Assembly (NCBI GenBank): GCA_015067435.1
Contig: SVMM01000004.1
Location: 62,001 to 126,000, forward strand
From: Oscillospiraceae bacterium
GTDB lineage: Bacteria > Bacillota > Clostridia > Oscillospirales > Oscillospiraceae
Length of the DNA: 64,000 nt
Direction of reading: 5' to 3'
Notes under the pieces: model-generated
Told to the model about the DNA's origin: nothing
The model's input: only the letters and a program-made list of their open reading frames with translations
The model's database searches: none
Translations under genes and position numbers: made by a program
Shown: in pieces, positions 52,360-62,208 of the stretch
Numbering within the stretch: position 1 is the first letter of the stretch
Layout: every line of letters begins with the position of its first letter

Positions 52360-54315
52360 TTACGCTTGCAGCTGCGGCAGGATGTCCTCGTAGAATTTGA
52401 GGCTTTCGGGGTTGCCCAGCGCGTCGCGGTTGCCGACGGGGCGGCCGTTGAGGATGTTCGTCACCGCGCCCTCGACCTTCTTGCCGTTGAGCGTAACGGG
52501 GATCTCCGGCGTTTCCAGAATGACGGCGGGCACGTGGCGCGGGGACGCCTTGGTGCGCAGCGTCGTCTTGATCTTCTTCACCAGCTCGTCGTCGAGCGTG
52601 TGGCCCGGCTGGCACTTGACAAACAGCACGATGCGCTGGTCGCCCGCGACGTTCTGCCCGACGGCGAGCGAGTCCTCGACCTCCGGCAGGGAGTTGACCT
52701 GGTTGTATATCTCCGCCGTGCCGATGCGCACGCCGGACGGCTTGAGGATGGAGTCGCTGCGCCCGCAGAAGGTAAGGCCCCCGGTGTTGCCGTGCAGGAT
52801 GACGTAGTCGCCGTGGCGCCACACGCCGGGATAGTTCGTAAAGTAGGCGTTAAAGTACCGCTCGCCCTTGGGATCGTCCCAGAAGTACAGCGGCATGGAC
52901 GGAATGGGCTTTTCGCACACCAGCTCGCCCTCGCGGTCGCGGATGGGCTTGCCGTCGTCGTCGTAGCACTCCACCTTCTCGCCGAGGCCGAGCGCGGACA
53001 GCTCGCCGCTGTAGACGGGGATCATCATATTGCCGATGCCAAAGCAGCCGTTGATGTCCGTGCCGCCGGCGATGGAGTTGAAGTGATAGTCCTCCTTGAT
53101 CTCGCGGTAGACAAACTCCCAGCCCGCGTCCGAGAGCGCCGAGCCGGTCTGCGAAATCGCGCGCAGGGCGCTGAGGTCGGCGTGCTCGCGCGGTTTGAAG
53201 CCGTGGGCGATCAGCATGTGGATGTAGCTGGCGGAGAGGCCGAAGTCCGTGACCTTCTCGCGCTCAAGGATCTTCCAGATCGCCGCGTCGTCGGGATACG
53301 ACGGGTTGCCGTCGAACAGGCACAGCTCCGCGCCGGTGCCGAGCGCCGCCGCCTGCCAGTTCCACATCATCCAGCTGCATGTCGTGATGTAGAGGAGCTT
53401 GCTGCCCTCCTGAATGTTGCAGTGGAGCACCAGCTCCTTTAACTGGTTGACGAGGATGCCCGCGTGGGACTGCACCATGCACTTGGGCTTGCCGGTGGTG
53501 CCGGAGGAGAACATGACGACCAGCGGATGGGACGCCGAGACCTGCTCGTAGGCAAAGCCGGCGGGCGCGGGCGCGAGATAGTCCGCAAAGCGCACCGCCA
53601 TGGGCACGTCCGCGATGTCGTCGTCCCCGGCGTAGTGAACGACCACGACGCGCCGGAGCGACGGGATGCGCGAGGCGATCTCCTTTACGTTGGGGATGGT
53701 GGAGAAGGTCTTGCCCTTATAGCGGTAGCCGTCGGTGGTGACGAGGATCTTCGGCTGGATCTGCCCCACGCGGTCGACCGCGGCGGTGGCGCCGATGTCG
53801 GTGGCGCAGGAGCACCACGTCGCGCCGACGGCGGCGGCGGCGAGCATGGCGACGATGGTCTCCGGCAGGTTCGGCAGATACCCCGCGATCGTGTCGCCGG
53901 GGACGATGCCCTCGTTCCGGAACGCCGTGGCAAGGCGCTCGACCGTCTCCTTCAGCTCGCGGCGCGTCATCTCACGGCGCAGGAAGTCCTCGCCGCAGAA
54001 CGTGATCGCGACGCCGTCGCGGTCGCAGAACCGCAGGAGGTTTTCGGCGTAGTTGAGCCTTGCGCCGACGAACCACTCCGCGCCGGGGAACTTTCCGAGA
54101 TCGTCCACGACCTTGTCATAGGGCTTGGAGCATATGATGTCGAAATAGTCCCACAGCGCCGCCCAGAAGTCCGGGATGTTCTCCACGGACCAGCGGTACA
54201 GCTCGGCATATTCATGGAAGTCCGTGCCGCAGCGTTTGTTTACATAACGCATAAAGTCCGCCATCCGGCAGCCGTTTTTCTGTTCCTCGGACGGGGTCCA
54301 AAGCATTTTTTGCAT
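52360..54315 (-). CDS. aacS: Acetoacetyl-CoA synthetase (acetoacetate--CoA ligase)
   Basis: Adenylate-forming enzyme of 651 residues. P-loop MFSSGTTGKPKCMV, the AMP-binding IAGGTDINGCFG segment, HGDYVILHGN and the acetyl-CoA-synthetase-type C-terminal lysine loop (TLNGKKVEGAVTNIL) are all present; the N-terminus (WTPSEEQKNGCRMADFMRYV) matches acetoacetate ligases rather than acetate ligases. It would turn acetoacetate released by Kce into acetoacetyl-CoA at the cost of ATP to AMP. Most lysine fermenters use a CoA transferase here. Last gene of the kam operon. Confidence 0.92.
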   Translation of the reverse strand: MQKMLWTPSEEQKNGCRMADFMRYVNKRCGTDFHEYAELYRWSVENIPDFWAALWDYFDIICSKPYDKVVDDLGKFPGAEWFVGARLNYAENLLRFCDRDGVAITFCGEDFLRREMTRRELKETVERLATAFRNEGIVPGDTIAGYLPNLPETIVAMLAAAAVGATWCSCATDIGATAAVDRVGQIQPKILVTTDGYRYKGKTFSTIPNVKEIASRIPSLRRVVVVHYAGDDDIADVPMAVRFADYLAPAPAGFAYEQVSASHPLVVMFSSGTTGKPKCMVQSHAGILVNQLKELVLHCNIQEGSKLLYITTCSWMMWNWQAAALGTGAELCLFDGNPSYPDDAAIWKILEREKVTDFGLSASYIHMLIAHGFKPREHADLSALRAISQTGSALSDAGWEFVYREIKEDYHFNSIAGGTDINGCFGIGNMMIPVYSGELSALGLGEKVECYDDDGKPIRDREGELVCEKPIPSMPLYFWDDPKGERYFNAYFTNYPGVWRHGDYVILHGNTGGLTFCGRSDSILKPSGVRIGTAEIYNQVNSLPEVEDSLAVGQNVAGDQRIVLFVKCQPGHTLDDELVKKIKTTLRTKASPRHVPAVILETPEIPVTLNGKKVEGAVTNILNGRPVGNRDALGNPESLKFYEDILPQLQA

Positions 54316-54330
54316 GATGGGTGCGCCTCC

Positions 54331-55119
54331 TTACTTCATGCCGCGGCGCACCATCTCCTTGACGCAGAAGGTGGCGACGTCGTTGGCGAATTTTCCGGGG
54401 CCGAAGCCCGCGTCGAAGCCGAGCTCCTTGGCAAGCTCGTGCGTGATGCGCGCGCCGCCGCAGCACATGACGCACTTGGCGCGCATACCCTCCGCCTCCG
54501 CCAGCTCGATGAGCTCCGTCAGATTCTGGATGTGGATGTTTTTCTGCGTGACCGTCTGGCTCACGAGCAGCACGTCGGCGTGCAGCTCGCGCGCCTTTTC
54601 GAGAAATTCCTCGTTCGGCACCTGACTGCCGAGGTTGTACGCCTCGATCATGTCGTAGCGCTCCAGGCCGTAGTGTCCGGCGAAGCCCTTGCGGTTCATG
54701 ATCGCGTCGATGCCGACGGTGTGGGCGTCGGTGCCCGTGGAGGCGCCGATGACCACGATCTTGCGGCCGATGTGCTCGCGGATGTAGGCGTCCACCTCGT
54801 CCATCTCCATCGTCTCGTCCTCGATCGCCTGGATCTGGATCTTGGTGTAGTCCACGCTGTGCGTGCACGAGCCGTAGACGACGTAGAAGGTGAACTCCTT
54901 GTCGAGCGAGCGGGCATAGGCGACGTTCGGCTCGCTGATACCCATCTGTCGGGAGAGCAGGCGCGCCGCCTCCATGCCGCGATCGTTGTTGGCGACGGGC
55001 AGGGTGAAGCTCAACTGCACCTTGCCGTCGTTCATCGTGTCGCCGTAGGGCTTGAGCATCGTGAGGTCGAGGGTCTTGTCGAAGTCCTTCGCCGACATGT
55101 CGTAGAGTCCGGAGCTCAT
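54331..55119 (-). CDS. kamE: Lysine 5,6-aminomutase beta subunit
   Basis: Cobalamin-binding subunit, 262 residues. The B12 motif is GTDAHTVGID (Asp-x-His-x-x-Gly) within a Rossmann-type domain with GPGKFANDVA near the end. The PLP-binding lysine lies in the N-terminal HSVDYTKIQIQ segment, as in characterised KamE. With KamD it moves the 6-amino group of beta-lysine to C5 using adenosylcobalamin and PLP. Overlaps kamD (ATGA). Confidence 0.96.
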   Translation of the reverse strand: MSSGLYDMSAKDFDKTLDLTMLKPYGDTMNDGKVQLSFTLPVANNDRGMEAARLLSRQMGISEPNVAYARSLDKEFTFYVVYGSCTHSVDYTKIQIQAIEDETMEMDEVDAYIREHIGRKIVVIGASTGTDAHTVGIDAIMNRKGFAGHYGLERYDMIEAYNLGSQVPNEEFLEKARELHADVLLVSQTVTQKNIHIQNLTELIELAEAEGMRAKCVMCCGGARITHELAKELGFDAGFGPGKFANDVATFCVKEMVRRGMK

Positions 55120-56708
55120 GCCCTCGCCTCCTCTCCGCGCATCGCCTCGATGAAGGGGTTGAAGTGGCCGTCCGCCTTGCGCACGACGCCGGAAAGGCCC
55201 TTGCCGCCGTCCTGCGGGCGCTTGATGTCCGCGAACACGCCCTTTTCAAGCGTCGCGAACAGTCCCATATGCTCGATCTCGCGCAGGAGGTCCGCCGCCT
55301 TTTGCAGCACCTCGGCGGCGCGGCTCTGGATGATGCCGCCGGGCTTGTATTCGATCTCGCCGCCGAAGTCCGCCATCGTGCGGAAGATGTACTGCGCGTT
55401 CTCGATGGCAAGCGCGCGGTCGGACATGAACGGCGTGTGGATCGCCTCGGTCATCATGCCGAGCAGGTGGATCTTCTGCCCTGTGAGGATCGTCACCATG
55501 TTAAAGAGCGCGTCCTGCACGTGACCGCGGAAGATGTTGCCGGTCATGAACTTCGTCGGCGGCATGTACTTGAGCGGCGCGCGCGGGAAGATCTCGCGCG
55601 CCATCTGCGCCTGCGCCAGCTCGTAGAGGAACGCGTTGGGAAGGTCCGGGTTCATCTCGAACGCGTGGCCGAGGCCCATCTGCTCCTCGGGAAGCCCCGC
55701 CTTGAGCGCGAACGCCTCGTTCAAAAACTGGCTTGCCAACACCGTGTGCGCCTCCTCATAGGCGTCGGCGGTGGTGAGATAGTTGTCCTCGCCGGTGTTG
55801 ATGATAACGCCCGCGAAGCCGTTGATGACGCGGGAGAAATACTGGTCGATGATCGTGCGCTGCATGTTGATGTCGCGGAACAAAATGCCGTAAAGCGCGT
55901 CGTTGAGCATCACGTCCAGCCGCTCCAGCGCGCCCATCGCCGCAATCTCCGGCATGCACAGGCCCGAGCAGTAGTTGCACAGGCGGATGTAGCGGCGCTG
56001 CTCCTCGCCGACTTCGTCGAGCGCGGCGCGCATGAGGCGGAAGTTCTCCTGCGTGGCGTAGGTACCGCCGAAGCCCTCGGTCGTCGCGCCGAAGGGCACG
56101 AAGTCCAGCAGGCTCTGCCCCGTGGTGCGGATGACCGCGATCACGTCCGCGCCCTGCTTCGCCGCCGCCTTCGCCTGCGTGATGTCCTCGTAGATGTTGC
56201 CCGTGGCGACGATCAGGTAGATAAAGGGACCCTCCTTGTCGCTGTACGCCGTTAGGTACTCGTTGCGTTTAGCCACGTTCGCGCGGATGCGGTCCATCGT
56301 CGCGTCCACGACGGGCGCGAGCGCCGCGCGGATCTCCGGCTCCGAATGGTTCGGCAGCGCCGCGAGGTCGATCTCGCCGCGGTCGATGCCCTCGGCGATC
56401 TCCTGAGGCGTCAGCCCCAGCTCCGCCATGGCGTTGCCGACGCGCAGCGCCGCGCCGTCGCCGAGGATGTCACGGGCGGAGAGGTGCTCCACCACGACGT
56501 TCGGCAGCGGCACGTCCACGTCGTTCACGCCGTCGATGCCGAGCAGGCGGCAGACCGTGCGCTCCACCGCGACGGTGGTGTGCGCTTCGATAAAGCGCTG
56601 CGTGTCCTCCGCCACCCGCGCGGCGGAGGCGCGCGCCTGATCGACGAGCGTGCGGTCCAGCCCCAGCTTGCTCTGCACCGGGGCGATCTTTGCTTTGATC
56701 GGCTCCAT
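55116..56708 (-). CDS. kamD: Lysine 5,6-aminomutase alpha subunit
   Basis: TIM-barrel catalytic subunit, 530 residues, normal for KamD. Typical segments: KIAPVQSKLGLDRTLVDQAR at the N-terminus, ATGNIYEDITQAKAAAKQGAD, PFGATTEGFGGTYATQENFRLM and EYKPGGIIQSRAAEVLQKA. It houses the radical chemistry over the cobalamin held by KamE. Located 4 bp downstream of kamA. Confidence 0.96.
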   Translation of the reverse strand: MEPIKAKIAPVQSKLGLDRTLVDQARASAARVAEDTQRFIEAHTTVAVERTVCRLLGIDGVNDVDVPLPNVVVEHLSARDILGDGAALRVGNAMAELGLTPQEIAEGIDRGEIDLAALPNHSEPEIRAALAPVVDATMDRIRANVAKRNEYLTAYSDKEGPFIYLIVATGNIYEDITQAKAAAKQGADVIAVIRTTGQSLLDFVPFGATTEGFGGTYATQENFRLMRAALDEVGEEQRRYIRLCNYCSGLCMPEIAAMGALERLDVMLNDALYGILFRDINMQRTIIDQYFSRVINGFAGVIINTGEDNYLTTADAYEEAHTVLASQFLNEAFALKAGLPEEQMGLGHAFEMNPDLPNAFLYELAQAQMAREIFPRAPLKYMPPTKFMTGNIFRGHVQDALFNMVTILTGQKIHLLGMMTEAIHTPFMSDRALAIENAQYIFRTMADFGGEIEYKPGGIIQSRAAEVLQKAADLLREIEHMGLFATLEKGVFADIKRPQDGGKGLSGVVRKADGHFNPFIEAMRGEEARA

Positions 56709-56712
56709 AGAT

Positions 56713-57960
56713 TTATCCCTCGTGATGAGCGCGCTTGAGACGCGCGAGGTTGTTCGGCTCCATGCTCAGCGCCTGCCCGCGCTCCAGGCCCGCGACGCCG
56801 ACCAGCTCGTCCTTCTTCGCGTCGCGGCACCGCTCGCACTGGCAGTCGGTGTAGTGCTCCGGCTCGGTGTAGGTCGTGATGACGCCCTCGAAGTTGCGCA
56901 AAACCACTTTATGCGGCGTCTGGGAGATGACGTAGTTCGGCATGACCGGCGTCTTGCCGCCGCCGCCCGGCGCGTCCACCACGAAGGTCGGCACGCAGAA
57001 GCCGGAGGTGTGGCCGCGCAGCGCCTCGATGATCTCGATGCCCTTGCTCACCGGCGTGCGGAAGTGCTCCAGTCCCATCGAGAGGTCGCACTGGTAGATG
57101 TAGTACGGGCGGACGCGCATCTTCACCAGCTCGTGCATGAGCTTTTTCATCGTGTACACACAGTCGTTCACGCCCGCGAGCAGCACGGTCTGGTTGCCCA
57201 GCGGCACGCCGGCGTCGGCGAGCATGGCGGTGGCGCGCTTCGAATCCTCCGTGACCTCTTTTGGGTGGTTGAAGTGCGTGTTGAGCCAGATGGGATGGTA
57301 CTTCTTGAGCATGGCGCACAGCTCCGGCGTGATGCGCTGCGGCATGACGACGGGCGTGCGGCTGCCGATGCGCACGATCTCGACATGGTCGATCCTGCGC
57401 AGCTCGGAGATGACGTGCTCCAGCTTGTCGTCGCTCATCACCAGCGGGTCGCCGCCGGAGATCAGCACGTCGCGCACCTCCGTGTGCTCGCGCACGTAGT
57501 CGATGCACCTGTCGATCTGGTCGACTGGCACCGCCTGGTCGTGCTGCCCCGCGAAGCGGCGGCGCGTGCAGTGGCGGCAGTACATCGAGCACTGGTCGGT
57601 CACCAGCAGGAGCACACGGTCGGGATAGCGGTGCGTCAGACCCTTGACCGGGGAGTCGGTATCCTCGTGCAGCGGGTCGAGCAGATCGGCGGCGGACTGG
57701 TGCAGCTCGTTCGCCGTGGGGATCGCCTGCCGGCGGATGGGGTCGTTGGGGTCGCTTAAGTCGATGAGCGAGAGATAGTACGGCGTGATCGCCATGCGCA
57801 GCGTGCCGAGGCACTTGCGGATCCCCTCTTCCTCCTCCTCGGTGATGTCGATATGCTTTTTCAGATCCTCGACCGTCTCGATGCGGTTGCGCACCTGCCA
57901 TTTCCAGTCGTTCCAATCCTGCTCGGAAACCTCTGCAAACAAACCGTTGCGAGTTTTCAT
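56713..57960 (-). CDS. kamA: Lysine 2,3-aminomutase
   Basis: Radical SAM and PLP enzyme converting L-lysine to L-beta-lysine, 415 residues. Cluster cysteines Cys124, Cys128, Cys131 in CSMYCRHCTRRRFAG; the PLP lysine is in DAPGGGGKTPVMP; C-terminal CQCERCRDAKKDE binds zinc. AAAGGAG lies 11 nt before the start; between them ATG-CCA-TGA forms a two-codon upstream frame whose stop overlaps the kamA ATG. It is preceded by tail-element copy B. Confidence 0.96.
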   Translation of the reverse strand: MKTRNGLFAEVSEQDWNDWKWQVRNRIETVEDLKKHIDITEEEEEGIRKCLGTLRMAITPYYLSLIDLSDPNDPIRRQAIPTANELHQSAADLLDPLHEDTDSPVKGLTHRYPDRVLLLVTDQCSMYCRHCTRRRFAGQHDQAVPVDQIDRCIDYVREHTEVRDVLISGGDPLVMSDDKLEHVISELRRIDHVEIVRIGSRTPVVMPQRITPELCAMLKKYHPIWLNTHFNHPKEVTEDSKRATAMLADAGVPLGNQTVLLAGVNDCVYTMKKLMHELVKMRVRPYYIYQCDLSMGLEHFRTPVSKGIEIIEALRGHTSGFCVPTFVVDAPGGGGKTPVMPNYVISQTPHKVVLRNFEGVITTYTEPEHYTDCQCERCRDAKKDELVGVAGLERGQALSMEPNNLARLKRAHHEG

Positions 57961-57992
57961 GGCATATTATTCTCCTTTAATAGTGGTTTCCC

Positions 57993-58117
57993 ATGCCTGC
58001 GGGCAGAATTGTCCGCAGGCATCAGCCATATTTCGCGGTTGCCCCGCAAGGGGCGAGCGAAATGGCGATCCATCGCAAAGTATGTGTAAAAGGCTCCGCC
58101 TTTTACACATACTTTGC
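57993..58117 (-). repeat. Gene-tail three-hairpin element, copy B
   Basis: Between kdd and kamA inside the operon. Hairpin 1 (58075-58117) pairs GCAAAGTATGTGTAAAAGGC with its inverse around TCC/GGA; the arm contains the last codons and stop of kdd (Lys-Tyr-Val-stop). Core 58026-58065 CGCCATTTCGCTCGCCCC..GGGGCAACCGCGAAAT. Hairpin 3 (57993-58022) is ATGCCTGCGG / CCGCAGGCAT. No T run, so probably not a simple terminator. Confidence 0.75.
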
Positions 58118-59146
58118 ATCGAAGAGCTTGCGCAGCTTCTCGTTCTCGCGCAGGACGTTGAGCGTGATCTCGGCGTGATCCTTGGCATAGCCGTTGCCGA
58201 CGATCATGGTGAGGTCCTTGCCCACGCCCTCGGCGCCGAGCGCCGCGCGGGTGAAGCTGGTCGCCATGGAGAAGAAGTAGACGGTGCCGCCCTCGCGCAC
58301 AGGGAGGATGGCGCTCATCTCGCATGCCTCAACGTTGACGCAGGAGATGGAGATGTCGTACTCCTTCCCGCCGTTCGCCTCCAGCGCCGCGTTCAGAACG
58401 GACACCGGCTCGGTCGCGCTGGCGACGATGACCTTGTTGTAGACGCCCAGCTCCATGAGCCCCGCGACCTGCTTGGGGTTGCGCACCACGCCGACGACGT
58501 TGCCCTTCGGCCCGACCTTCTTCATCGCCTCGTAGCCGCACAGCACGCCGGACTTGCCGTTCGCGCCGAGGATCAGCACGCTGTCGCCCTCCTTGGGAAG
58601 CCTGCGCGCCTGCGCGGGCGCGCCGGCGACATCCAGCGCCGCGAGCGCCAGCGCCTCGGACATATCGTCGGGCAGCTTCGCGTACAGGCCGCTTTCAAAC
58701 AGCACCGCCTGCCCTACGATATCCACGCGGTCGATCTCCTTGTGGATGGCGAGGATCTTATCGATCTTCAGCGGCGTGAGGGACAACGACACCAGCGACG
58801 CGATCCTGTCGCCGACCTTGAGGTCGCGGTCCTTGAGATCGTCGCCGATGTAGGCGACCTTGCCGATGAACATGCCGCCGGAGCCGGTGACGGGGTTCTG
58901 CTGTTTGCCGCGCTCGGCGACGATGCCCATAATCATTTCGCCGATCTTCTTCTCGTCGCCGCCGCAGGCCTCGCTGATCTGGGTGAAGGACGCGGAGTCG
59001 ATGTTCAGGGAGATGACGTCGCAGATGATCTCATTGGAGTAGTGTTTGGACATGTCGTTGTCGATCTTTTGTGCCGCCTGCGTCAGCACGCCCTTGGGTT
59101 CGATGACGCGGTGCGCGCCGTACTTGTCGCCTTTGAGCTGTTCCAT
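58103..59146 (-). CDS. kdd: L-erythro-3,5-diaminohexanoate dehydrogenase
   Basis: NAD-dependent oxidative deamination of 3,5-diaminohexanoate to 5-amino-3-oxohexanoate. The 347 residues show the Kdd N-terminus (GAHRVIEPKGVLTQAA), a GroES-like part (IGDDLKDRDLKVGDRI) and a Rossmann domain with SVLILGANGKSGVL and VVGVVRNPKQ. CTGGAGGAA precedes the ATG. Its 3' end is mirrored in element copy B. Confidence 0.95.
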   Translation of the reverse strand: MEQLKGDKYGAHRVIEPKGVLTQAAQKIDNDMSKHYSNEIICDVISLNIDSASFTQISEACGGDEKKIGEMIMGIVAERGKQQNPVTGSGGMFIGKVAYIGDDLKDRDLKVGDRIASLVSLSLTPLKIDKILAIHKEIDRVDIVGQAVLFESGLYAKLPDDMSEALALAALDVAGAPAQARRLPKEGDSVLILGANGKSGVLCGYEAMKKVGPKGNVVGVVRNPKQVAGLMELGVYNKVIVASATEPVSVLNAALEANGGKEYDISISCVNVEACEMSAILPVREGGTVYFFSMATSFTRAALGAEGVGKDLTMIVGNGYAKDHAEITLNVLRENEKLRKLFDAKYV

Positions 59147-59180: not shown

Positions 59181-59999
59181 TCAGCCAAGACCGAGTATCC
59201 TCCTCGCCTCGGCGGGAGACGCGATCTCGCGCCCGAGCTCGCCGGCGATCCGGACGACCTTCGCCACCAGCTCGCCGTTGCTCTTGGCGAGCACGCCGCG
59301 CGAGAGGTAGAGATTGTCCTCAAAACCCACGCGGACGTTGCCGCCCATGACGATCGCCGCGGCGCCGAGTGTGAAGGCGTTGCGCCCGATGCCGGTCGCC
59401 GTCCATGTGCTGCCCGAGGGGATATGGCTCACCAGCCAGTCGAGGTTGCCGACGGTTGCGGGTGTGCAGCCGGGGACACCGAGCACAAAGTTGAACTGCA
59501 TCGGCGCGCCGGGCACCTCGCCCTTCTTTGCCATGGCGAGGATCGTGTCGAGATGCCCCATCTCGAAGCACTCGTACTCCGGCTTGATGTGGTTTTCCAG
59601 CATCCGCTTGCCAAAGGCGCGCATTGTGGGCATCGTGTTGTCGAAGATTTCGTCGCCGAAGTTGCAGGTGCCGCAGTCGAGCGTCGCCATCTCTGGCATC
59701 AGCTCGGTGGGCTGGAGCCGCTCCTCGGCGCTCATGCCGACCGCGCCGCCCGTGGACGGGATCAGGATCACGTCGGGGATCGCCTGTTTGATGGCATCCA
59801 TGCACATGCGGAAGCGCTCGCGGCTCTGCGTGGGCGTGCCGTCGTCCTCGCGCACGTGCAGGTGGACGATCGCCGCGCCCGCGTCATAGGCGCTCTTCGC
59901 CTCGCGCACGATCTCGTCGACGGTGTAGGGCACGGCGGGATTCTGCTGCTTCGTGACTTCCGCGCCGCAGATGGCGGCGGTGATGATGAGCTTCTCCAT
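59181..59999 (-). CDS. kce: 3-keto-5-aminohexanoate cleavage enzyme
   Basis: BKACE/DUF849 family, 272 residues. It condenses 5-amino-3-oxohexanoate with acetyl-CoA and releases acetoacetate and 3-aminobutyryl-CoA. Zinc ligands are visible as AIVHLHVREDDG (His-x-His) and the Glu of MGGNVRVGFEDNLYL. ATG at 59999 follows AGAGGAAG; an upstream frame extends into kal and is rejected. Seven base pairs after kal. Confidence 0.95.
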   Translation of the reverse strand: MEKLIITAAICGAEVTKQQNPAVPYTVDEIVREAKSAYDAGAAIVHLHVREDDGTPTQSRERFRMCMDAIKQAIPDVILIPSTGGAVGMSAEERLQPTELMPEMATLDCGTCNFGDEIFDNTMPTMRAFGKRMLENHIKPEYECFEMGHLDTILAMAKKGEVPGAPMQFNFVLGVPGCTPATVGNLDWLVSHIPSGSTWTATGIGRNAFTLGAAAIVMGGNVRVGFEDNLYLSRGVLAKSNGELVAKVVRIAGELGREIASPAEARRILGLG

Positions 60000-60006
60000 C
60001 GCGCTC

Positions 60007-60387
60007 TCACTTCCTCTGCTTATCCTTGGGGACGACGCAGGTGCCGCTGGCGCGGCAGACCACGATGGGGGGATCAAGCACGTCGCAGGCGGACTCGTTG
60101 ATGTCGGGCCGCGGGGCGATGACCTTGCGCGCCTCGAACGTCATCTTGCGCGAGGTGTTGCCGACCTTGACGATCTCGCCCTCCGCCTCGATGTAGTCGC
60201 CCGCGTAGACCGGGGCGAGGAACTCGACGTTGTCGTAGGCGCAGAACAGTCCCTCGTCGCCGTCCTGCATGATGAGCAGCTCCGTCGCCACGTCGCCGAA
60301 CAGGTGCAGCATGTGCGCCCCATCCACCAGATTGCCGCCGTAGTGCGCGTCCTCCGCGCCCATGCGTACCCGGATCAAAGATTTCAT
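60007..60387 (-). CDS. kal: 3-aminobutyryl-CoA ammonia-lyase
   Basis: Hot-dog-fold enzyme of 126 residues that eliminates ammonia from 3-aminobutyryl-CoA to give crotonyl-CoA, which then feeds butyrate formation. The [20 protein letters not shown] segment, with the conserved Asp and His, is characteristic. AGGAGGAAAC precedes the ATG. It is the first gene after the lysine-riboswitch leader. Confidence 0.94.
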
Positions 60388-60426
60388 TTTGTTTCCTCCT
60401 GTATGATATAGATATTTCGGATCATC

Positions 60427-60465
60427 AAAAAAGCGCTATTGGGCATTCTTTTCCCAATAGCGCTT
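60427..60465 (-). terminator. Expression-platform terminator in the kal leader
   Basis: Minus strand AAGCGCTATTGGG-(9 nt)-CCCAATAGCGCTT, 13-bp stem followed by TTTT and GATG. It lies 8 nt after the lysine aptamer and 40 nt before kal, the position of a riboswitch-controlled terminator. Confidence 0.85.
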
Positions 60466-60472
60466 CATGCAT

Positions 60473-60619
60473 GGCATGACAGCAGCTGGCGCTGGGCCCG
60501 GCTGCCAGAGAGACGGCTCGGCGCGCCGCCCCTCTTCGGCGAAACGACCCTTCCTCCCCGCTCGGGACCGCCATCCCATGGAGCGGGGGATACCCTTCGT
60601 TTCGCGCCTCTATTCTACC
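60473..60619 (-). promoter_or_regulatory. Lysine riboswitch (L-box) aptamer
   Basis: The 147-nt minus-strand leader carries the conserved L-box blocks in order: AATAGAGGCGCGAAAC, GGGTAT (in place of AGUA-type loop), GGAAGGG, TTTCGCCGAAGAGG, CTGGC..GCCAG and GCTGTCA. P1 can form between GGTAGAATAG and CTGTCATGCC with an internal mismatch pair, P2 between CGAAACGA and TCGTTTCG, and the next stem between CCCCGCTC and GAGCGGGG. The match was made by eye against the Bacillus lysC leader. It lies before lysine degradation genes, whereas known L-boxes mostly control synthesis and uptake. Confidence 0.83.
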
Positions 60620-60681
60620 TGTTCAATTGCAAGCCCGATTCCACAAAAAACCGTTCCTGATTTGGATACAGGCTTATGGAT

Positions 60682-60711
60682 ATTATACAAAGCAGAGTCA
60701 GCTTTTGTCAA
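60682..60711 (-). promoter_or_regulatory. Promoter of the riboswitch-controlled kal operon
   Basis: Minus strand TTGACA (60706-60711), 18-bp spacer, TATAAT (60682-60687), consensus. It starts about 45 bp after the kamC stop, so kal to aacS have a promoter separate from kamBC. Confidence 0.85.
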
Positions 60712-60756
60712 CCCATTTTTGGATTGAATTTCGCGGGTTTTTCCGCCGATTATCCC

Positions 60757-62208
60757 TTATTTCGCGTTCTCTGACGCTATAAAGTCCAAAATTTCCCGCT
60801 CTATGCCGAGCATGCGGCACACGCGCAGCGCGTGGCGCGGGCACTCCGTCCCCGGCTCCACCGGAACGAGGCCGTAGTCCATGGCGTTTTCGAGGCGGCG
60901 CAGGCGGTCGGCGCCGGTGCCGGACGCGTCGTCGCCCGCCTCCGCGTCCTTGAGCCCCTTGACCTGATAGTGCCGCACGGCAAAGTCTGCCGTGCCGTCA
61001 TAGTGCGTGGCGAGCAGCGTCACGGCATTCTTGTCAGAGAGGTACTTCACCACGGCGCGGGCGATGGCGGCGCCCTCGCGGGCGTTCGTGCCGCGCGCGA
61101 ATTCGTCCATGGCGATGAACGAAAGCCCGCCCGCGCGCAGGTTCTCCGCCGCGGCGTTGAAGCGCAAAATCTCCCCGCCGAAGCTGCTCAGCCCTTCCGC
61201 GGCGTTGGAGAAGTCGCGGTTGATGAGCTCGATGCGGTCGAACAGCGGCACACACGCCGAAGAACAAAACACAAAGCAGCCGGAAAGCGCCAGCGCCGTG
61301 TTGAGCACCACCGTCTTCATAGCGACGCTCTTGCCGCCCATGTTCGCGCCGGTGAGCACCGTGACGCCCCGCGCAAGCTCGATGCCGATGGGCGTAAAGC
61401 GGCGGCCGCGCTCCTCCAGCGCGGCGGCGAGCTGGGGATGCACCGCGCCGGTCAGACGCAGCGTATCGCCCCCGACCGACGGACGGCAGCAGCCGAAGCG
61501 CCGCGCCAGCAGGGCCTTGCTCAGCGCCGCGTCCAGCCGTCCCGCCGACGCGGCGCACGCGCGCAGCGCGCACAGCTCGGCGCGCAGCGCCTCGCTCATC
61601 TCCGCGTAGATCGCCGTCAGGGCGTCCTCCTCCGCCTTCGCTGCCTCCTGCCGCCGCGCGAGCAGCGCCTCGCGGTCCGCGTCATCCTGCCGCAGCAGCC
61701 GTTCCAGCGTGCGCTTGCGCTCCCGCGCCTCCAAAAGCGCCGGCGTGCGCGCGTCCTCGATGTAAAAGCTCAGGCGGTCGCCGCCGGATGGGTTCAGAAT
61801 GCGCAGCGCGCCGTCCACGCTCTCGAAGCGCACGCCGTCCAGCCGATCATAGCAGGGCAGCGCCTCCGCGCGCGGGATCAGTGTGCGCAGCCGCAGGCAA
61901 AACGCGGTGAGCTCGTAGAGCTCCACCTCGGTGAGCGCGCGGTTTTCGCAGGCGTCCAGCGTCCCGCTGAGCTCCTTGAGCCCGCCCAGCGCCGCGCGCA
62001 GGTTCGGAATGTCGCACTCCGGCTCGTCCAGCGCCGCGCGCAGCAGCGCGACGTTCTCCAGCTCGCGCTCCAGCGCCTCCTTCTGCTCCGGCGCGTAGAA
62101 CCCCTCCGCGCGCAGCCGCTTCACCCCGTAGGGGCAAACCGGCTCCAGCAGGTCGCGGACGTATTTGAAGCCGATATCCTCTTTTTGCTCATAGGACAAT
62201 TCAATCAT
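60757..62208 (-). CDS. kamC: MutS-like ATPase KamC, lysine 5,6-aminomutase reactivase
   Basis: A 483-residue MutS-related protein. The C-terminal ATPase has Walker A TGANMGGKSVAMKT, Walker B LSFIAMDEFARGTN and ATHYDGTADF; the N-terminal half is a helical lever region without the mismatch-recognition domain. This truncated MutS type occurs with aminomutases of lysine and ornithine fermentation, where it is thought to reactivate the B12-dependent mutase by exchanging damaged cofactor. Start ATG at 62208 follows GGAGGATCGACAG; a much longer open frame upstream is a shadow of kamB. Confidence 0.92.
   Translation of the reverse strand: MIELSYEQKEDIGFKYVRDLLEPVCPYGVKRLRAEGFYAPEQKEALERELENVALLRAALDEPECDIPNLRAALGGLKELSGTLDACENRALTEVELYELTAFCLRLRTLIPRAEALPCYDRLDGVRFESVDGALRILNPSGGDRLSFYIEDARTPALLEARERKRTLERLLRQDDADREALLARRQEAAKAEEDALTAIYAEMSEALRAELCALRACAASAGRLDAALSKALLARRFGCCRPSVGGDTLRLTGAVHPQLAAALEERGRRFTPIGIELARGVTVLTGANMGGKSVAMKTVVLNTALALSGCFVFCSSACVPLFDRIELINRDFSNAAEGLSSFGGEILRFNAAAENLRAGGLSFIAMDEFARGTNAREGAAIARAVVKYLSDKNAVTLLATHYDGTADFAVRHYQVKGLKDAEAGDDASGTGADRLRRLENAMDYGLVPVEPGTECPRHALRVCRMLGIEREILDFIASENAK

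Follow-up and report, generated by a model that had tools for sequence, protein, structure and literature searches.

A predicted lysine-activated riboswitch sharing its P1 strand with the terminator of a lysine-fermentation operon in an Oscillospiraceae bacterium

The DNA analysed here, referred to below as the window (a stretch of 64,000 nucleotides from an Oscillospiraceae bacterium), carries on its minus strand a lysine riboswitch (L-box) which, judging from its sequence, is very probably (at a probability of about 0.88) a lysine-activated, or ON, transcriptional switch, with lysine leading to read-through into the downstream genes. Most of what is known of lysine riboswitches concerns OFF switches. 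An earlier note on this DNA had proposed an L-box aptamer and a terminator at 60427-60619, in front of the lysine-fermentation genes kal-kce-kdd-kamADE-aacS, and had suggested an Rfam covariance search as a check; the position agrees with ours, the search returned a match to RF00168 of 77.9 bits (E 1.2e-18, against a gathering score of 30) which is the only Rfam match above gathering score in the whole 64 kb, the terminator (T1) has a computed stability of -22.1 kcal/mol, and all of the genes score above the cut-offs of their protein models (Table 1).

The aptamer is followed by the genes in the order kal-kce-kdd-kamA-kamD-kamE-aacS and has the promoter on its other side, from which transcription would start at about 60675; this was the one promoter-like site in a scan of 60000-61000 (shuffled sequences lead to an expectation of 0.5). 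The start of kce is an ATG picked by us. The product of aacS, which scores above the cut-offs of two acetoacetate--CoA ligase models, is probably encoded by the last gene of the operon, and a hairpin with a weak U tail (52353-52324) lies downstream of it; scans of the 142-bp gap between kdd and kamA (57961-58102) found no Rfam match and no promoter- or terminator-like site. The score and the pocket-junction residues, which are as in other L-boxes (GAGG.GC, GCCGA, UGG, CUGUC and the AG of J5/1), place the element in the lysine riboswitch family, while two peripheral features which are highly conserved in RF00168, though not strictly defining, are absent: the loop-E AGUA, replaced by GGUA, and the A126/A127-type L4 pentaloop, replaced by CCAGC.

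Table 1. Positions of the riboswitch elements and operon genes in the window.
Feature	Position	Strand	Basis or remark
Lysine riboswitch aptamer (P1-P5)	60620..60450	-	Rfam RF00168, model positions 1-182, full length
Promoter TTGACA-18-TATAAT, sigma70-type	60711..60682	-	12 of 12 consensus positions
P1 5' strand AAUAG	60610..60614	-	5 contiguous pairs with 60460-60456 (CUAUU)
P1 3' strand CUAUU (switching strand)	60456..60460	-	Common to aptamer P1 and terminator 5' arm
P2 internal-loop GGUA	60591..60594	-	Position of AGUA (loop E / sarcin-ricin) in other L-boxes
L4 pentaloop CCAGC	60491..60495	-	Replaces the usual xAA(C/U)A
Intrinsic terminator T1, GAAGCGCUAUUGGG / CCCAAUAGCGCUUU and U tract	60466..60427	-	14 pairs
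kal Shine-Dalgarno AGGAGG	60395..60400	-	Outside the terminator; read from the sequence
kal, 3-aminobutyryl-CoA ammonia lyase	60007..60387	-	NF052388, 201.5 bits, cut-off 160
kce, 3-keto-5-aminohexanoate cleavage enzyme	59181..59999	-	NF052387, 423 bits, cut-off 382
kdd, 3,5-diaminohexanoate dehydrogenase	58103..59146	-	NF052381, 259.1 bits, cut-off 200
kamA, lysine 2,3-aminomutase	56713..57960	-	TIGR03820, 629.8 bits, cut-off 525.4
kamD, lysine 5,6-aminomutase alpha	55116..56708	-	NF052384, 907.7 bits, cut-off 600
kamE, lysine 5,6-aminomutase beta	54331..55119	-	NF052385, 402.2 bits, cut-off 280
aacS, acetoacetate--CoA ligase	52360..54315	-	TIGR01217, 800.2 bits, cut-off 520.9

The evidence for the sign of the switch is provided by the overlap between aptamer and terminator, both of which were computed here, as was their mutual exclusion. 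The 5' arm of T1 includes the J5/1 segment of the aptamer (AGCG) together with its entire P1 3' strand, and P1 and the complete terminator, having this strand in common, are mutually exclusive; since the two cannot coexist, lysine can only oppose termination. T1 is unlikely to be a chance hairpin (z -5.97, with none of 200 shuffles equally stable), no other U-tract hairpin downstream of P1 in the window leader does better than -2.7 kcal/mol, and a test of the window for an OFF-type layout found no terminator compatible with P1 accompanied by an antiterminator disrupted by P1. Lysine activation, regarded in the earlier note as the natural expectation for a catabolic operon, is thus what this architecture points to, and the sign, which the same note could not decide by eye, can be read from the sequence, as a lysine-bound P1 would block the terminator.

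When the folding of growing transcripts was computed for the ligand-free state, P1 was favoured up to leader nucleotide 237, a tie was reached at 238, and from nucleotide 244 the terminator was ahead by approximately 12 kcal/mol. Binding at micromolar affinity is worth roughly 8 kcal/mol by our estimate, which is less than this equilibrium lead; a terminator so much more stable than P1 leaves room only for a kinetic decision, as has been described for the pbuE riboswitch. We infer lysine binding, the kinetics of strand exchange and the regulatory effect as follows. RNA polymerase would make the aptamer first and, once this had bound lysine, its five-way junction together with the short P1 (AAUAG/CUAUU) would keep the strand AGCGCUAUU occupied and the 5' arm of the terminator unavailable, allowing polymerase to pass the U tract and transcribe kal-kce-kdd-kamADE-aacS; with no lysine, the terminator would nucleate at a toehold of its own, the GGG/CCC pairs adjoining its loop, invade P1 and J5/1 by strand exchange, and stop transcription once the 14-pair hairpin had been finished at the U tract. 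Given the P1 of five pairs and the altered P2-L4 contact discussed below, the affinity for lysine may be low. Translational control was also considered and set aside, the kal Shine-Dalgarno sequence lying outside the hairpin.

The arrangement is conserved. A scan of named genomes returned at least 556 relatives of kal, and among the best 80 of these, which were taken forward, 18 have an L-box just upstream of kal, the rest including many Bacteroidales sequences and a few too near a contig edge to judge. Above the family cut-off, kal was found in 5 of the 60 genomes comprising our own and its relatives and in 78 of 398 genomes of the phylum; scanning 33 further kal loci with flanks of 1.5 kb (four of the relatives and the 29 best of the phylum besides our own) gave six more L-boxes, bringing the kal-linked set, with the window, to 25. 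A hairpin starting inside the aptamer is present in all 25 and is followed by a T-rich tail in 24, the tail being weak in L079 and weak in L135 as well, and both of these leaders continue into a second terminator. Within the genus, all five genomes with kal above the cut-off (our own, G003, G013, G014 and G015) possess an ON L-box, that of G013 (L273) being found on a different contig, at its end. Conservation and three-way covariation were likewise computed: six P1 3' positions take part in a pair of P1 as well as in one of T1 in 125 of 150 cells of the kal-linked set, with the triples AUA, GCG, UGU and CGC changing together, and an alignment of P5 and T1 in 22 of the 25 sequences (excluding L095, L120 and L135) has both-sided changes at 13 of 17 pairs.

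Controls were provided by the same 60 genomes, which hold 64 L-boxes, five linked to kal and 59 not. Terminators were looked for in 31 of the non-kal L-boxes: 30 are followed by a U-tract hairpin that does not touch P1, and the remaining one (L011) stops at a contig edge 44 nt past the aptamer. Hairpins of some kind overlapping P1 also occur in 14 of the 31 (7 stable and 7 weaker), which counts against the ON reading of the layout; by eye, however, the stable ones (-13 kcal/mol or better with a loose T-rich stretch after them, in L004, L005, L007, L014, L017, L021 and L026) are read as putative antiterminators, with the T stretch falling in or before the next terminator. The genes following the controls, also assigned by eye, are dapA, asd, or genes for an NhaC-like transporter or an amino-acid binding protein in 29 of 31 cases, two being cut, and the other 28 non-kal L-boxes precede mostly similar genes, besides dapF, lysA and a small number of different or unclear ones. 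The two other L-boxes of our own genome (L001, 1501-1668, plus strand, and L002, 1674-1501, minus strand) precede dapA and the NhaC-like transporter gene, have separate downstream terminators and carry AGUA in the P2 loop.

A search model built on the ON architecture (R1) gave 41.7-67.8 bits at nine ON loci, seven of which are in its training alignment, while the maxima for L-boxes that are not ON were 31.6 bits among the 31 controls, 29.1 among a further 76 L-boxes and 31.6 among the remaining 28 of the relatives. The separation is imperfect, as the ON locus L135 scores 31.5 bits against 31.6 for L026 and L254, which are not ON. Over the 398 phylum genomes R1 returned 28 rows, seven of them better than E 1e-8: four lie before kal (our own, G440, G131 and G089), one, in G312, lies before a gene resembling a sigma54-type regulator approximately 4 kb from kal, and two, in G369 and G411, lie before kdd approximately 6 kb from kal, the G369 gene being confirmed as kdd with NF052381. 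The 21 weaker rows consist of two further matches in the tandem leaders of G369 and G411, one reverse-strand echo (L176), four L-boxes that are not ON (L160, L164, L169 and L174), 11 sites without an L-box by Rfam and three (L173, L175 and L177) outside the Rfam scan. ON-type L-boxes which have as their next gene not kal but one resembling, by eye, a sigma54-type regulator were seen at L154, which is approximately 4 kb ahead of kal, L284 and L285, and the G312 arrangement resembles the T. tengcongensis operon described in PMC5584792.

Some leaders appear to be gated more than once. A second terminator of -8 kcal/mol or better lies before kal in 7 of the 25 kal leaders (L076, L077, L078, L079, L099, L043 and L135). 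In some leaders the second terminator is an evident copy of the first. The duplex of the T1 3' arm with the T2 5' arm was equalled by at most 1 of 300 shuffles in five of the seven, by 18 of 300 in L135, where the arm was cut short, and by 184 of 300 in L078, where the pairing fails; with longer arms and foreign partners as a control, the leader's own partner was the best in 4 of 8 (L076, L077, L079 and L135, with G369 added to the seven), because many leaders have the AGCGCUAUU motif in common. A relay is plausible in which the 3' arm released from T1 would serve as an antiterminator of T2 and hold T2 open when lysine is bound. In G369 (L155, 1092-1536, plus strand) and G411 (L156, 1938-1527, minus strand) two successive ON L-boxes precede kdd, each with its own aptamer-overlapping terminator, and in G369 a third terminator follows the second; 14 double lysine riboswitches are known from PMC9481103.

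The ON aptamers also differ from other L-boxes in their own sequence. We compared 31 ON aptamers, all distinct strings (the 25 kal-linked, L273, one of G312, two of G369 and two of G411), with 139 others, namely the 59 of the relatives, four low R1 matches and the 76 mentioned above, which were hand-picked from the best-scoring L-box rows, none beside a kal site, with mechanism and gene not inspected singly. All 31 ON aptamers have GGUA in the P2 internal loop, which none of the 139 has, 134 of these carrying AGUA; the real variants that are neither are L246, L247, L257, L268 and L281, and apparent AGUA exceptions at L189, L192 and L207 were scanning errors. Four later ON leaders, identified by R1 only (L284-L287), have GGUA twice and UGUA twice (L284 and L285), making GGUA 33 of 35 and AGUA 0 of 35 in the ON total. 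In a FastTree phylogeny of the aptamers, for which the sequences were roughly trimmed and P1 was left out, all 31 ON members group together in a clade of their own (support 0.985), and the clade is still present with support 0.597 when the loop-E columns are removed.

Residue numbers were taken from PMC3764141 and alignment columns were mapped by matching of consensus strings and not by structure, and on this mapping A23 is retained in 12 of 31 ON aptamers against 138 of 139 others, A26 in 0 of 31 against 138 of 139, and G69 in 20 of 31 against 136 of 139. The L4 pentaloop fits xAA(C/U)A in 2 of 31 against 103 of 139, and YNAGY in 22 of 31 against 4 of 139; the sequences being related, no weight is placed on a Fisher value for these counts. 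Most of the pocket is kept: GAGG.GC and GCCGA are invariant in ON and other groups and UGG and CUGUC nearly so, and the J5/1 base equated with A162, on the pocket floor, is A in all 31 controls measured but in 24 of the 31 ON aptamers, that of the window among them, being U in L034, L091, L138, L143, L273 and the second G369 aptamer and G in the first (L155). According to PMC3764141, L4 contacts P2 through A127.A23-G69 and A126.U24-G68, the floor is a G11-G163-G141-A162 quartet, and mutation of A126 and A127 lowers termination; the P2 sarcin-ricin motif is highly conserved (PMC2258182) and loop E helps the P2-L4 interaction (PMC6614840).

The ON L-boxes are thus altered on both sides of the P2-L4 tertiary contact and keep most of the pocket. 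In pbuE hybrids, an overly stable tertiary structure of the ligand-free aptamer blocks strand exchange (PMC7707468), and the simplest reading of our comparison would be that P2-L4 docking has been weakened or rebuilt so that the empty aptamer yields to the terminator; common ancestry alone could also explain the common letters, the clade being one lineage and its sequences not being independent (L119 and L120 are nearly identical). A fuller proposition, which we consider evenly poised between right and wrong, is that lysine-ON riboswitches form a distinct aptamer subclass of single origin, with the pocket mostly kept and P2-L4 rebuilt (loop-E A to G, drift at A23 and G69, a YNAGY pentaloop), which would permit strand invasion in the ligand-free state and make a sensor of high lysine, some members adding multiple gates by relay terminators or tandem ON copies.

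Among the other explanations considered, an OFF switch, in which lysine would favour the terminator by way of an antiterminator formed by CCCAGCGC and GCGCUAUUGGG, had been thought conceivable in the earlier note. The duplex can be drawn and is worth -10.1 kcal/mol, but when the 28 nt preceding CUGUC were allowed to pair in any way with the arm of the terminator and the outcome was compared with 200 shuffles, 90 of them were as good in the window, which makes the pairing average, and in 23 of the 25 kal L-boxes (two could not be anchored) it never ranked among the best 10 of 200. The region involved is moreover the L4 pentaloop, and a lysine-bound P1 takes away the terminator arm, so that lysine could not favour termination; this reading is accordingly very improbable. 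Least probable of all is a vestigial element, that is, a degenerate L-box beside a constitutive terminator, for which the P1 of just five pairs and the lower RF00168 score (77.9 bits, against 90.3 and 86.4 for the L-boxes which the same genome has before dapA and the transporter gene) could be cited, but which is at odds with conservation accompanied by compensatory changes across species, with the core residues that are kept and with a consensus promoter.

The same ON architecture could in principle respond to a relative of lysine from the pathway, such as beta-lysine or 3,5-diaminohexanoate, in place of L-lysine. The separate branching of the ON aptamers, the changes in their P2 and L4, and an A162-equivalent that is U or G in 7 of 31 where every control measured has A speak for such a ligand, but the window itself has A at this position and the other pocket motifs are invariant, or nearly so, in both groups, which leaves this reading improbable, if a shade less so than the OFF switch.

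Predictions of ON-type lysine riboswitches and of catabolic L-boxes have already been published, and the earlier note's opinion that a lysine-activated L-box would deserve attention stands only with this reduction in novelty. According to PMC2258182 (2007), which cites Rodionov 2003, certain lysine riboswitches with ON logic bury pieces of the terminator stem upon ligand binding, as proposed for the window; the sentence devoted there to ON logic is a single one and a separate aptamer subclass is not mentioned in that context. PMC5584792 (2017) lists L-boxes before kal/kce in C. sticklandii, F. nucleatum, T. tengcongensis and T. wiegelii and states, citing Serganov and Patel 2009, that catabolic L-boxes are positively regulated, so that aptamer family, kind of target gene and stated sign are the same as in the window; its section 13 gives no terminator architecture, and its four L-boxes are compared here by their published description. 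The adenine riboswitch pbuE of Bacillus subtilis, whose terminator invades the aptamer through P1 by strand exchange unless ligand blocks this (PMC7707468), would work like the switch of the window, but differs from an L-box in having an unrelated aptamer, a three-way junction and a purine ligand. OFF L-boxes of dapA, asd and transporter genes belong to the same aptamer family and have nearly the same junction residues, but have the terminator separate from P1, AGUA in loop E and, in most cases, the usual L4 pentaloop. A covariation model of a lysine aptamer plus terminator, in which the overlap takes in more of the aptamer than it does in B. subtilis lysC, is given in PMC13273304, and engineered lysine-activated riboswitches exist, the natural Lactobacillus switch described with them being repressing (PMC10974012). 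In the open-licence literature searched we found neither a natural lysine-ON riboswitch that had been tested nor an ON aptamer subclass of this kind, and within that literature the subclass and the sign rule attached to it appear to be new.

In conclusion, the window offers a clean test case for the prediction of a natural ON lysine riboswitch. Whether the P2 loop reads AGUA or not is suggested as a rule by which the sign of an L-box may be predicted from the aptamer alone. The comparison also ties a tertiary contact to regulatory logic: strand exchange in pbuE hybrids is reported to require a sufficiently weak tertiary structure in the ligand-free state (PMC7707468), and it is a docking contact of that sort which is altered in the ON L-boxes.
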